Shown here in pieces: positions 15,216 to 29,828 of a DNA stretch of 64,000 nucleotides. Below the pieces are notes generated by a model. That model saw only the letters and a program-made list of their open reading frames with translations, did not search any database and had not been told where the DNA came from. Origin of the DNA: Traorella massiliensis. GTDB lineage: Bacteria > Bacillota_I > Bacilli_A > Erysipelotrichales > Erysipelotrichaceae. The stretch spans positions 124,001-188,000 of the forward strand of contig NZ_LT629969.1 of assembly GCF_900104665.1 (NCBI RefSeq), written 5' to 3'. The position numbers and the translations under genes were made by a program. Positions within the stretch are counted from its first letter, which is position 1; every line of letters begins with the position of its first letter.

Positions 15216-16274
15216 ATGCAGAATATGGACTACTATTATGACTTTTCCGGTCAGAAATTTGGTTATCCTTTAAGCTTAAGCATCAATAGTTTTGAGCGGG
15301 TCGTTTTTTCACGTATTCCAAGTCTTGAAATCTGTTATGTGTTAAAGGGAGAATATGAGGTCATTACTGAGCATTTTTCAGGATTGTTACGGGAACATGA
15401 ACTGGCTTTGATTGCTCCGGATGATATTCATAAGATTTGTTGCCATGGGAAAGGTGAAAATGTTGTCTTAACGATTCATATTGATTTTTCTAAGCTTCCG
15501 GATTCAATGGTAGGGCATCGAAAATCTTTTCTTTCTATGATTTGTACTGAAAATTGTCATAAGTTGATACTTGATTCTTTTAAGAAATGTATTGGACAGC
15601 TTATTGGCTTGCTTCAGAAGAAAGATTATAATATTTTTGAATTGAATAAGCTGATGATGGAGCTAATGGCCATTGCTTCTGATTCTAGAGAATATTCAAT
15701 TGAAGAATTGCCTTTATCCTCACAGCACAATGAAAACTATATGAAGGCTATTCGCTATATTGATCGTCATTATCAGGAAGATCTGCGTTTAGAAGACATT
15801 GCGAAGACATTGAATTTTAGTATTTCTTATACTTCAAAGCTGTTTAAAAAATATAATCAGATACCTTTTGTGAAGTATCTCTCTTATGTACGTCTAAGAG
15901 CTTCATTAGAGGCGCTGCTTGAAGGAAAACATACGATTGAGGAGATTGCCAGGGATTGTGGAATGCCGAATGCTAAAGCATATACAGTGGCTTTTAAGGA
16001 GATGTATGGTATCTTGCCAAGCAGTTATCGTAAACAATTTGTACGTAACATGAAATATAATGAAGAAAATCGTGATCAGGAAATGGCTTTAGATGAAAAG
16101 CAGTTATCTTTATTAGCTCATTTGACACAAAAAGATTCTCTTTTATATGAAGATGAAAAAATTGTATTAACAAAACAGTCTGCAGGCTATTCTATGTCAA
16201 TGAAGGAAGAGGCGAGTCAGTTTGTAGTAGAAAAAGATATTATACGATTATCTTTTGGGGAAAAGAAGACGTAA
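15216..16274 (+). CDS. AraC-family transcriptional regulator
   Basis: 352 residues. The N-terminal about 140 residues look like a cupin-type ligand domain (LEICYVLKGEYEVITEHFSG, then LALIAPDDIHKI). Residues about 175-275 carry the paired AraC HTH: IDRHYQEDLRLEDIAKTLNF, SISYTSKLFKKYNQIPF and IEEIARDCGMPNAKAYTVAF. A roughly 75-residue C-terminal tail beyond the HTH is unusual in the family. Start 15216 is preceded by TTGGAGG; an in-frame TTG at 15201 would include that site. Next to two flavoenzyme genes transcribed the same way, which are its likely targets. Confidence 0.85.
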   Translation: MQNMDYYYDFSGQKFGYPLSLSINSFERVVFSRIPSLEICYVLKGEYEVITEHFSGLLREHELALIAPDDIHKICCHGKGENVVLTIHIDFSKLPDSMVGHRKSFLSMICTENCHKLILDSFKKCIGQLIGLLQKKDYNIFELNKLMMELMAIASDSREYSIEELPLSSQHNENYMKAIRYIDRHYQEDLRLEDIAKTLNFSISYTSKLFKKYNQIPFVKYLSYVRLRASLEALLEGKHTIEEIARDCGMPNAKAYTVAFKEMYGILPSSYRKQFVRNMKYNEENRDQEMALDEKQLSLLAHLTQKDSLLYEDEKIVLTKQSAGYSMSMKEEASQFVVEKDIIRLSFGEKKT

Positions 16275-25378: not shown

Positions 25379-27353
25379 CCCATCTTTGACAGTTAAAAAG
25401 TAAGAAACCTCAAGAAAACACCGAGATTAAGGGTTATTCCTGAGGTTTTGGTTTTGTAAAGATATGTAGTATTTTATTGCTTTTCCTTACTTTTTTTAAT
25501 GATGCTTCTCATCTTTGATTTCTTGATGATCTCTGTATCAGTTCTGAATCCGAATACTTCGTGTAATTTATCCGTTAATTCTGTTCTTGTGTATGTCGGA
25601 ATATATCCATATTCTTCTAGCCTACATACTTCCATCTTCTTCAGTGTGCTGATGATCTGTTCGGCTGTATATTCTTTTTTCAGCCTGATCTCCAGTAATC
25701 GAAAGATCATCAGTGCAATGAAACAGATCAGAAAGTGTGCTTTGATTCTGTCTTCTCTACGCAAATATACAGGTCTTGCATCGAATTCTGTTTTCATGAT
25801 CCTGAAACATTCTTCAATCTGCCATCTGCGCTTATTAATGTTTATGATCTGTGCTGCATCTCCTTCTATATCGGTTACCACTGCATAGAAACCATCATAC
25901 ATAGTTTCTTTGTCTATCATGTCTTTATCGAGTTCATATATTTCTTTATCTGCTACCTCGCCATATTCCGTAACTGATGTCTTCTTCACAAAGCGAGCAG
26001 GATCGTTTGGATTCCTTCTCTCCTTCTTCAATTTATCTCCACTTTCGATCAGCTTCTTTGCTCGTTCTAATTGCTGCTCTCTGATCTTTTTCTGATAAGC
26101 TCTGTATTTTGGCGAATAGGTAACGATCATGGTTTCTGACAGTTTTTTTGATTCGATCGGCACTTCTTTATAGTAGATGGTTTCGTATACTTCAGGATTC
26201 GTCTCATCCAGAGCAGAAATATCGATCCATTCGTTACTTCCCAGCTTTCTGAACTGTTTTGGATCTAAGGCAGTTTCCCGGTATTCCTGTTTCAGCTTTT
26301 TCAGTGACTGGGTAACTACATAGCCTCTTCCGCCCATGTCATTGAAGAGCCTGTTGTCCTGAGAAGCGAGTCCGGAATCTGAACAGAAAATGAATTCAGA
26401 GCATTCGAAATCACGGATGACCTTCTGTTCGAGAGGTTTTAGAGTTTTCTGTTCATTCTGACTGCCTGGATAAATATCAAAAGCAAGAGGAATACCGTCT
26501 GCATCCATAAAGAGTCCCATTCCAACGATAGGATTAGGTCTATGTTCTTTGCTCTTGCCATATTTCCTCAATTCATCGGATTCTTCAATTTCAAAATAAT
26601 AGTTAGTACAGTCATAATAAAGAATCTTCGTATTTCTGCTGTGTACGAAATGACTATTGCGATAGAGTTCGGACTGGATATAATCAGACTCGCCTGCAAG
26701 GACAGAAAGAGAACGATACATGTGATGAAGATCATACTCAGGCTGTTCCAGAAGAGTCTGTGCAAAAGAATAAGTGCTCTTCTTGCTGGCAGGATAAAGG
26801 ATACGGGCATAGACCATATCAAGCAGGATATCCTGAAAAGGATATTCATAATCATGGCGATTCCTGATATTCCGGCAAATATTATCGAAACGCAGATCAG
26901 AGCATAGCGACTGAAGGAAGAGATAGCCGCAGTTGAAATTTCTTTGCTCGTTTAATTTGATCTGCATATTAGGATGAAAAGGGATAGAAATGGTTTCGTT
27001 TTCTTTTTTATAGGAATCGGTAGCAAGTTTAGCCTGCTGTTTCGCCCAGGCAATGACCTTATCCCTGTCATTATCATGAAGAGGGAGCAATTGATCCATG
27101 GAACCAAGCTTTTTAAAGATTTTAGAAGTACTTTTTCCATTCCTATCACGGAAAGAATGAATAATATAAACCTGTTCTGCATTTGTAGATTTACTGATAC
27201 TGACACGCATAAAATATCACCAGATATATTATAACACAGAATACCACAAAACACTACATATAAAAACATAAAAATTGACAAAATTTCATTAAAAAAAAGC
27301 TTATTTTAAGCCTTATATTAAATATCATTAATTTGATAAGGTGTTAAACTCCC
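25379..27353 (-). mobile_element. IS1634-family insertion sequence (IS4 superfamily)
   Basis: A 1975-bp element between two 55-bp direct repeats, encoding one transposase on the minus strand. IS1634-type elements are known to create unusually long, variable target duplications, which fits. Terminal inverted repeats are weak by eye: CTTTGACA near the left end and, inverted, GTTTAACA near the right. A hairpin AAACCTCA/TGAGGTTT (25405-25448) downstream of the transposase gene may terminate its transcript. The element looks intact and recent because the repeats are identical. Confidence 0.8.
25474..27210 (-). CDS. IS1634-family DDE transposase
   Basis: 578 residues, full length for the family. 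The DDE triad candidates are Asp in YYDCTNYYFE, Asp in FCSDSGLAS and Glu in NKRRWQIEECFRIMK, the last being the YREK-like signature of IS4-superfamily enzymes. The N-terminal about 100 residues are a basic/helical DNA-binding part. No internal stop or frameshift is seen, so the enzyme is probably active. ATG at the 27210 side lies about 145 bases from the element end. Confidence 0.9.
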   Translation of the reverse strand: MRVSISKSTNAEQVYIIHSFRDRNGKSTSKIFKKLGSMDQLLPLHDNDRDKVIAWAKQQAKLATDSYKKENETISIPFHPNMQIKLNEQRNFNCGYLFLQSLCSDLRFDNICRNIRNRHDYEYPFQDILLDMVYARILYPASKKSTYSFAQTLLEQPEYDLHHMYRSLSVLAGESDYIQSELYRNSHFVHSRNTKILYYDCTNYYFEIEESDELRKYGKSKEHRPNPIVGMGLFMDADGIPLAFDIYPGSQNEQKTLKPLEQKVIRDFECSEFIFCSDSGLASQDNRLFNDMGGRGYVVTQSLKKLKQEYRETALDPKQFRKLGSNEWIDISALDETNPEVYETIYYKEVPIESKKLSETMIVTYSPKYRAYQKKIREQQLERAKKLIESGDKLKKERRNPNDPARFVKKTSVTEYGEVADKEIYELDKDMIDKETMYDGFYAVVTDIEGDAAQIININKRRWQIEECFRIMKTEFDARPVYLRREDRIKAHFLICFIALMIFRLLEIRLKKEYTAEQIISTLKKMEVCRLEEYGYIPTYTRTELTDKLHEVFGFRTDTEIIKKSKMRSIIKKSKEKQ

Positions 27354-28507: not shown

Positions 28508-28629
28508 AGAAGCTATGCCAGAATATTTGAATTTATTATATTGTTTTTATAATTTTAATGATTGGATGATTAAGCTAGATTGTTTTATAAAAAACTGATG
28601 AAGATGTATGAGATACTTTACATATATTA

Positions 28630-28681
28630 TTGACATACCTATTATACTATGATATTTTATAGTTGTGAAAGCCTTTCACAA
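28630..28681 (+). promoter_or_regulatory. Promoter with a perfect 19-bp palindromic operator
   Basis: TTGACA (28630-28635), 17 bases, TATTTT (28653-28658). Immediately downstream TTGTGAAAGCCTTTCACAA (28663-28681) is a perfect palindrome around one central base, placed on the expected transcription start. The half sites TTGTGAA/TTCACAA equal those of the redox repressor Rex, but with 5 instead of 4 bases between. Strong repression of the following secreted-protein gene is likely. Confidence 0.65.
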
Positions 28682-28709
28682 TACATGATGAGAAGGGAAG
28701 GAATTTATT

Positions 28710-29204
28710 ATGAAATTCAGTAAGATTTTATGTGTAATTTTAGTTAGCTTTTTTACTGTCCTATCTGCTTCTAAACCTATTTATGTTAATGCAGAAGAAA
28801 TTAGTCCAACAGCATGGCCAGGAAGACCAGGTGGAAATGGTGATGAATCAGAAGAATGGTTGCAAGGCAGTTATGGGCAAACTAACGGCCCATGGAAACT
28901 TATATATACATCTAAGGGTAGTGTTAATGCTTTGAATACTCAAAAAAGTGTTGCTGATACTATTGGGCTTGGAATTGTTGGAGCATTAAGCGGAAATATT
29001 TTGGCAGGAACAAAAGCGCTTGTTGTTAGTGGATTGGTTACAGCTACTGGGGTAGCTACTACTGTTTATGGTGGTTATGAAGGTGTGTATTATATTTCTA
29101 AGACTTATATATCCGGGAGATGTATGAAAACTGTTATAACTACATATCGTAATTCCAATTATACCGGATTTGTAAAGCAATATGAGAAATATACAAAGTG
29201 GTGA
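28710..29204 (+). CDS. Secreted small protein with glycine-rich hydrophobic segment, bacteriocin-like
   Basis: 164 residues. A signal peptide (hydrophobic core about residues 8-22, cleavage suggested after VNA) is followed by a Pro/Gly/Trp-rich part, then at about 85-130 an amphipathic to hydrophobic stretch with many Gly and Ala (IGLGIVGALSGNILAG and VATTVYGGYEGVYYI). The C-terminus is basic and Tyr-rich. I do not recognise a family. Secretion, the Gly-rich membrane-active-like helix, the tight operator and an overlapping small membrane gene suggest a bacteriocin or toxin with immunity, but this is inference. AAGGGAAGGA site upstream. Confidence 0.6.
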   Translation: MKFSKILCVILVSFFTVLSASKPIYVNAEEISPTAWPGRPGGNGDESEEWLQGSYGQTNGPWKLIYTSKGSVNALNTQKSVADTIGLGIVGALSGNILAGTKALVVSGLVTATGVATTVYGGYEGVYYISKTYISGRCMKTVITTYRNSNYTGFVKQYEKYTKW

Positions 29205-29206
29205 AA

Positions 29207-29422
29207 ATGCTTTATTTATATTGGCTGTTTTTTATAATAATTGTATCGGTAATAGGATTTTTAAATTATAGTCTTATACCGTATTTTATATTAGTTTTTG
29301 GAAATATCTACTTTTTAATATTGTATAAGCTTAAAAGGTGGAAAGCTTCTAAATTAAATATTGTTGTTATTGCTTTAACAAATTTAATTTGCCTGCTTTT
29401 ATTGATACTCAAAAACAAATAG
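29207..29422 (+). CDS. Small membrane protein, possible immunity partner
   Basis: 71 residues from ATG 29207, or 74 from GTG 29198, which would overlap the secreted-protein gene by 7 bases. Two to three membrane helices and little else: an aromatic YWLFFIIIVSVIGFL, a middle FILVFGNIYFLILY with KLKRWK after it, and a C-terminal IALTNLICLLLLIL. Translation is probably coupled to the upstream gene. Small polytopic proteins next to bacteriocins are often immunity proteins; no homology is recognised. Confidence 0.5.
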   Translation: MLYLYWLFFIIIVSVIGFLNYSLIPYFILVFGNIYFLILYKLKRWKASKLNIVVIALTNLICLLLLILKNK

Positions 29423-29713
29423 TATGTTTTAAAATTAATGAGAAATGGTATTTTACTGATATTGGAAATATATTATATTTTTTCTGAAAGCATGCATATG
29501 AATCAACAAAAAATATATGCTTAATAAATCACGGATTAAATGAAGACAGATGACTATGAAAGGAATCAGTTAGTCGTTTTATGGTTCGAAAACGGGAAAT
29601 ACATATTTGAGGTGAAGCAAATCTGTTTATGAAGATAGAGAATTAACACTAATTCATATAATTATAAATGATTGATATACAGTATTCTCTAAAATTGAAA
29701 ATAATATTTCATG
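29423..29713. other. Intergenic region without recognised gene
   Basis: AT-rich, about 290 bases. No coding pattern, tRNA or strong hairpin is seen before the terminator at 29714. Confidence 0.5.
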
Positions 29714-29751
29714 GCATGAACTAAAGTATGATATTAGGTTCATGCTTTTTT
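29714..29751 (+). terminator. Strong hairpin terminator before the ecf operon
   Basis: GCATGAAC (29714-29721) and GTTCATGC (29738-29745) form a perfect 8-bp stem followed by six T. It probably ends the secreted-protein operon transcript. Confidence 0.75.
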
Positions 29752-29828
29752 ATGACATTTTGTTTTGTGCTTAAATGAATATGAATTATTTAGGATTGAA
29801 ACTAACGCTTTGGAAAAGCAGAGAAAGT

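Follow-up and report, generated by a model that had tools for sequence, protein, structure and literature searches.

Organization of the gene pair

Which function is served by two adjoining genes of the gut bacterium Traorella massiliensis, one for a secreted glycine-rich protein (gene A) and one for a small membrane protein (gene B), that lie behind a perfect palindrome? An earlier note had read them, from the letters of the window (the whole 64-kb stretch of DNA analysed), as an undescribed bacteriocin/immunity pair under tight, possibly redox-dependent repression. Both genes and the palindrome were found as that note described them, with the coordinates and the signal-peptide-like N-terminus confirmed, and A and B, the one exported and the other a small membrane protein, are a real, conserved and uncatalogued pair. 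As argued below, the best reading is that A is probably a Sec-exported, membrane-active bacteriocin and B its immunity protein.

Gene A, the proposed bacteriocin (ATG at 28710 to stop at 29204, + strand), encodes 164 aa and was analysed by family alignments, relatives and structure models; the 2.6 Mb host genome carries a single copy. The N-terminus, MKFSKILCVILVSFFTVLSASKPIYVNAEE, is signal-peptide-like, with a basic start and, by hydropathy, a hydrophobic core at residues 6-24. Three modules were delimited downstream and compared by mean pairwise identity among six members: a conserved N-terminal module (28815..28895, + strand; residues 36-62, WPGRPGGNGDESEEWLQGSYGQTNGPW; identity 0.82), a hydrophobic segment predicted from hydropathy and models to be a helical hairpin (28935..29072, + strand; residues 76-121; identity 0.19), in which the Gly/Ala-rich, hydrophobic part spans residues about 81-119, and a C-terminal module of three strands in the models (29085..29201, + strand; residues 126-164; identity 0.42). 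Twenty-five residues are invariant across the six complete members. No recognised catalytic domain was found in A.

Gene B (29198..29422, + strand) encodes a small hydrophobic membrane protein, proposed as the immunity protein on the grounds of its positional conservation and of being kept where A is degraded. Two starts are available, an ATG at 29207 (71 aa, 2 nt past the A stop) and a GTG at 29198 (74 aa, 7-nt overlap with A). Most members of the A family end in TGG followed by the stop, and at L068 (Clostridium), L077 (Roseburia) and L022 an ATG overlaps this terminal TGG, giving B an M-V start and a 7-nt overlap. Because the GTG of the window sits where these three loci have their ATG, the overlapping 74-aa start is plausible, as is the overlap of the two genes that the earlier note had suspected.

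A small ORF of 50-96 aa, starting -11 to +23 nt from the A stop, was present at 9/9 junctions measured, in several genera, and contained at least one segment over the hydropathy cut-off at all of them but that of Carnobacterium; in Granulicatella two B-type ORFs follow A consecutively. Between the window and Clostridium, A is 57% identical and B 20%, with B diverging faster, and relatives were not recoverable when B alone was used as the sequence query. It weighs against the immunity reading that B is identified chiefly by position and hydrophobicity, that AT-rich DNA gives such ORFs readily, and that the Carnobacterium ORF has no segment over the cut-off.

Family members and distribution

The A family is rare and uncatalogued. 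Relatives occur in Erysipelotrichaceae, Clostridium, Roseburia, Carnobacterium and Granulicatella; each of them has WPGRPGGNGD..SEE following the signal peptide, then a hydrophobic segment that varies and a C-terminus rich in strands. Profile searches of 272 genomes of the host's taxonomic family gave matches in eight, of which seven are convincing: the window, G239 (same genus), G008, G049, G095 (two copies), G218 and G219, where the high score of G008 arises by construction, the profile having been built from G008 and its other rows. When 392 genomes of the phylum were searched by profile, A matches were confined to the window's own taxonomic family. A WPGRPGGNG DNA pattern was run over 84,980 species; its 39 matches were mostly in unrelated DNA of other phyla, and it added Carnobacterium maltaromaticum, Clostridium celatum, a Clostridium MAG, Granulicatella balaenopterae (two copies) and Roseburia. 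Judged by this conservation across families, the gene pair goes beyond chance.

Single-sequence scans of genome and viral contigs for A found none, and plasmid and phage collections queried with the window, Clostridium and Carnobacterium A proteins gave no real match; a C-terminal A-like remnant on a Streptococcus plasmid and on an Enterococcus plasmid was similar-looking, but at E 0.3. Searches of A, B and the relatives against Pfam, NCBIfam, PHROGs and PADLOC gave nothing significant, and the Pfam/NCBIfam cut-off was reached neither by the window A nor by six relatives. A PDB profile search with A found no relative, Rfam had no match at the locus, and a text search of the literature library for the WPGRPGG motif gave no paper. 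A catalogued anti-phage defence protein was considered and set aside, as no PADLOC model matched. The libraries searched likewise yielded no homologue of A or B that is a characterised bacteriocin or immunity protein, which counts against the preferred reading.

Proteins of G008 (L026), Listeria (L081) and Enterococcus (L082) are remote A relatives at most, having just the C-terminal region and the general layout in common with A (hhalign gave a probability of 51% over 34 columns). At L081 2264-3118 (Listeria) and L082 2202-3022 (Enterococcus), a membrane ORF of 60-61 aa lies before, not after, the distant A-like gene, and the Listeria gene is broken by a stop.

The range of carriers bears on a further reading, in which the targets of exported A are host or other eukaryotic cells and B helps as a chaperone or in export. 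Some carriers come from gut or animal-associated sources and A is an exported hydrophobic protein, both of which would fit; however, a eukaryotic or host-acting domain was searched for in A and its relatives and none was found, the pattern of orphan B genes described below suits bacterial self-protection, and A is also carried by Carnobacterium maltaromaticum, a bacterium of dairy and food (PMC9504619). Action on eukaryotic cells is hence scarcely probable.

Insertion site and genomic neighbourhood

A and B are carried on a stretch of about 1.3 kb (28509..29828) without counterpart in the sister species G237, where about 34 bp separate the acetyltransferase gene from the ABC-transporter gene that comes next; the flanks match the window, and the place is an empty site. 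By this comparison the A/B cassette appears to be sporadic or mobile. In Clostridium celatum the pair adjoins genes for a prohead protease and a head protein (prophage head genes).

Together, the Clostridium celatum neighbourhood and the insertion missing from the sister species would suit a phage or mobile-element cargo pair that serves in a conflict of another kind (superinfection exclusion, for example, or maintenance of the element) rather than in inter-bacterial killing. Phage genes are nevertheless absent from the surroundings of most loci, PADLOC, PHROG and the phage collection gave no match, and A has a signal peptide and an exported architecture, which leaves this reading with little probability, and a bacteriocin with its immunity protein is still preferred.

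Genes for LytTR response regulators and GHKL kinases are a common neighbourhood of regulated bacteriocins. Such a regulator and kinase lie directly upstream of the A-B-B arrangement in Granulicatella (L076 1814-3282, - strand), which suggests quorum-type control there.

Other features of these neighbourhoods were recorded. A DDE_Tnp_1 transposase gene (window 25474-27210, - strand) lies upstream of the acetyltransferase pair bordering the insertion. After B, 56 bp at window 29711-29766, including a terminator-like inverted repeat, are 82% identical to two other sites of the genome (C7, C6). Tiny ORFs lie upstream of A at L021 (around 15688 and 16661, + strand, MQSLSISRYKNGDYTLDKTIF twice), at L025 (around 1331, - strand, MLKYNLHRYKNGDLI, then a terminator-like hairpin) and at L024 (around 7861, - strand, MKEYDIHHLSVARYKIGI); those of L021 and L025 are preceded by a ribosome-site-like sequence, and the window has no such ORF. 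A leader/attenuator or a signal peptide is a possible role for them.

Degraded A, retained B and tandem copies

Immunity genes are known to be retained after loss of the main protein, and to diversify as partners. Both kinds of event were seen in the family. In two related species, G218 and G219 (L022/L023), the middle of A has been lost through one shared internal deletion, and the G219 gene additionally carries a stop. B is intact in both, with dN 0.02 and dS 0.14 and a dN/dS of about 0.14 that rests on 9 changes; the two genes adjoining B have dS of 0.04 and 0.08. A third genome, G049, has A shortened to 72 aa, followed by a hydrophobic reading frame. The tandem pairs of G095 (L021), a metagenome assembly, have A genes identical at 495/495 nt, as are the 100 nt upstream, next to B genes identical at 255/291 nt, which thus differ by 12%; of the changes in B, 25.5 are non-synonymous and 10.5 synonymous (dN 0.123, dS 0.189).

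B is thus kept where A is lost and has diversified where A has not, which is the behaviour of an immunity gene, although the counts are small; the preferred reading is further tempered by the low confidence of the window A model and by the metagenomic origin of the L021 tandem.

The same loci bear on whether A and B join in a single complex that works in or on the envelope of the producer itself, for instance in surface signalling or adhesion, with B as an assembly partner. Such a complex would account for the export of A, for the making of a membrane protein directly beside it and for an N-terminal motif as strongly conserved as a partner-binding site could be, and killing by A is inferred, not demonstrated. 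B, however, appears constrained in two species with a gutted A, unlike a complex subunit, an identical A stands next to a diverged B at L021, and the distribution is very sporadic; we consider an envelope complex rather improbable.

The interpretation of the earlier note stands in part, its claim of an undescribed bacteriocin/immunity pair being the part supported. That claim gains from the co-occurrence of A and B in distant genera, from B kept beside a gutted A, from the invariant A and variable B of the L021 tandem, from presence and absence at a syntenic site and from the lack of a match to any described family in the searches above, while the killing and the protection themselves belong to the interpretation.

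Predicted structure of A

AlphaFold was run with seven sequences as input. The window A model (pLDDT 53) consists of b63-70, a72-93, a97-121, b127-135, b138-146 and b154-163. The Clostridium relative gave the same order of elements with a mean pLDDT of 63.6, and its first strand and C-terminal module are mostly at pLDDT about 79-91. Both models therefore run from an unstructured conserved N-terminus through one strand and a helical hydrophobic stretch to three strands. Fold comparison with both models gave no match; the best Z scores, 6.3 and 7.1, lie in the background range given for unmatched models. Such a lack of matches is no proof of a new fold.

Comparison with known systems

In pore-forming colicins a hydrophobic helical hairpin inserts into the membrane, and their immunity proteins are small multi-TM membrane proteins. 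A and B resemble them in the predicted hairpin and in the small membrane partner, but A is much smaller, comes from a Gram-positive bacterium and has a signal peptide, and the searches gave no sequence or fold match: the colicin pore domain had no profile match to A and was absent from the fold-comparison lists, though the models compared are weak.

The proposed working of A and B is like that of dysgalacticin/DysI and streptococcin A-M57, bacteriocins of class III that are plasmid-borne, exported by Sec and non-lytic (PMC8308785). Dysgalacticin, made as a 220 aa precursor (21.5 kDa), perturbs the membrane potential of its target, and a membrane-associated immunity factor is encoded adjacent to it (PMC8308785). 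The likeness to A and B would lie in the Sec leader, the single exported protein, the disturbed membrane potential and the adjacent membrane immunity factor; A is likened to DysA (AY907345) and SA-M57 (AY648561) by description alone, and no family model matches it.

The lactococcin 972 family is Sec-exported, as A is predicted to be, and its bacteriocins are unmodified and of Bacillota, including gut species. Its member mediterrocin is a beta-sheet protein of 89 aa when mature; its partner is a seven-TM DUF1430 protein, and an ABC protein accompanies them (PMC12345188). B, in contrast, is only 71-74 aa and has no DUF1430 match, and A has a predicted helical hairpin; both A models contain two or more helices, at low confidence there, whereas the lactococcin 972 fold is all-beta. 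A and its relatives matched no family model of lactococcin 972, and kinship with mediterrocin was rejected.

Proposed mechanism and meaning

The anatomy of the pair, with an exported A that has a hydrophobic hairpin and no recognised catalytic domain, and with a membrane partner beside it, suits the reading preferred here, a bacteriocin active on membranes together with the protein giving immunity to it. A and B would be co-transcribed from a promoter near 28630-28658, with translation of B coupled to the end of A, as the overlap suggests. A would be exported and its signal peptide, by prediction, cleaved, leaving a mature protein of about 135 residues. The WPGRPGGNGD..SEE N-terminus and the strand-rich C-terminus would form a common scaffold, and the N-terminus or the C-terminal module probably binds a target on susceptible cells. 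From its anatomy, the variable hydrophobic helical hairpin would insert in the target membrane and depolarise it. B, in the membrane of the producer, would block insertion or the receptor and diverge together with the hairpin.

Evenly balanced, in our judgement, is a wider proposal: that these proteins are modular, pore-forming bacteriocins of Bacillota, exported by Sec and making up a family not described before. In this family a near-invariant WPGRPGGNGDGSEEW N-module would be joined to a fast-diversifying hydrophobic hairpin, whose match is a mini immunity protein that diversifies just as much, and the genes would be carried by sporadic insertions, by prophages and by plasmids. If true, gut-type and lactic bacteria would have a further bacteriocin family, one missed by the protein-family libraries searched, and the variable hairpin and its variable partner would be a compact system for studying specific immunity by tiny membrane proteins. 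The constant N-terminus of A, if the bacteriocin reading is true, points to a receptor or entry route common to the family. For finding further members, the WPGRPGGNG motif offers an easy handle.

Promoter region and palindrome

The predicted promoter, TTGACA-17-TGnTATTTT with a TG extension (28630..28658, + strand), was taken from a consensus scan, in which such matches are frequent by chance. Downstream of it the exact 9-1-9 palindrome TTGTGAAAGCCTTTCACAA (28663..28681, + strand) covers the predicted transcription start. The genome has this exact copy alone and a single copy with 3 mismatches, inside an apparent polyphosphate kinase coding sequence, and none of the A relatives has the palindrome upstream. 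Among Markov-simulated intergenic sequences of 202 nt, 1.7% had a perfect arm of at least 9 with a spacer of up to 6, and the 64-kb window has 13 such matches, some nested; the palindrome is only weakly beyond chance.

In favour of the Rex or redox control proposed in the earlier note are half sites, TTGTGAA/TTCACAA, that are Rex-like, the presence of Rex in the host genome and the position of the palindrome over the predicted start, where a Rex operator would silence the pair at low NADH. The Rex site, however, is TTGTGAAW4TTCACAA, with a 4-nt A/T spacer (PMC2883068), whereas the spacer here, AGCCT, is of 5 nt and G/C-containing. A genome-wide count gave no excess of Rex-type 18-bp sites (21, against 37 in the reversed control) or of sites of the TTGTTAA form (3, against 4 in the control). 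Given also a palindrome that is unique and missing from relatives, the claim is not supported; Rex control of the pair is unlikely, and an operator of this kind has a slim chance.

With about even probability the palindrome is a 5' mRNA stem-loop stabilising the transcript, or fortuitous. An 8-bp stem with a 3-nt loop would lie at the predicted 5' end, the chance rate given above for this intergenic length is compatible with a fortuitous origin, and lack of conservation suits either; on the other side, the 5' region folds with an ordinary energy (z -0.67), and perfect 9-bp symmetry fits the operator of some other repressor too. The palindrome may thus be an operator for a repressor other than Rex, a 5' mRNA hairpin or a product of chance.

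A cre (catabolite-repressor) site at the palindrome was considered and rejected: compared with a cre-type palindrome the sequence lacks one base, and the central CG is missing. The palindrome also holds TTCACA, the -35 of a promoter-like match (11 of 12) at window 28641-28669 on the - strand, with no obvious gene there. Upstream of position 15463 (- strand) at L026, the promoter region of the distant G008 relative contains a cre-like sequence, GAAAACGCTTTC.
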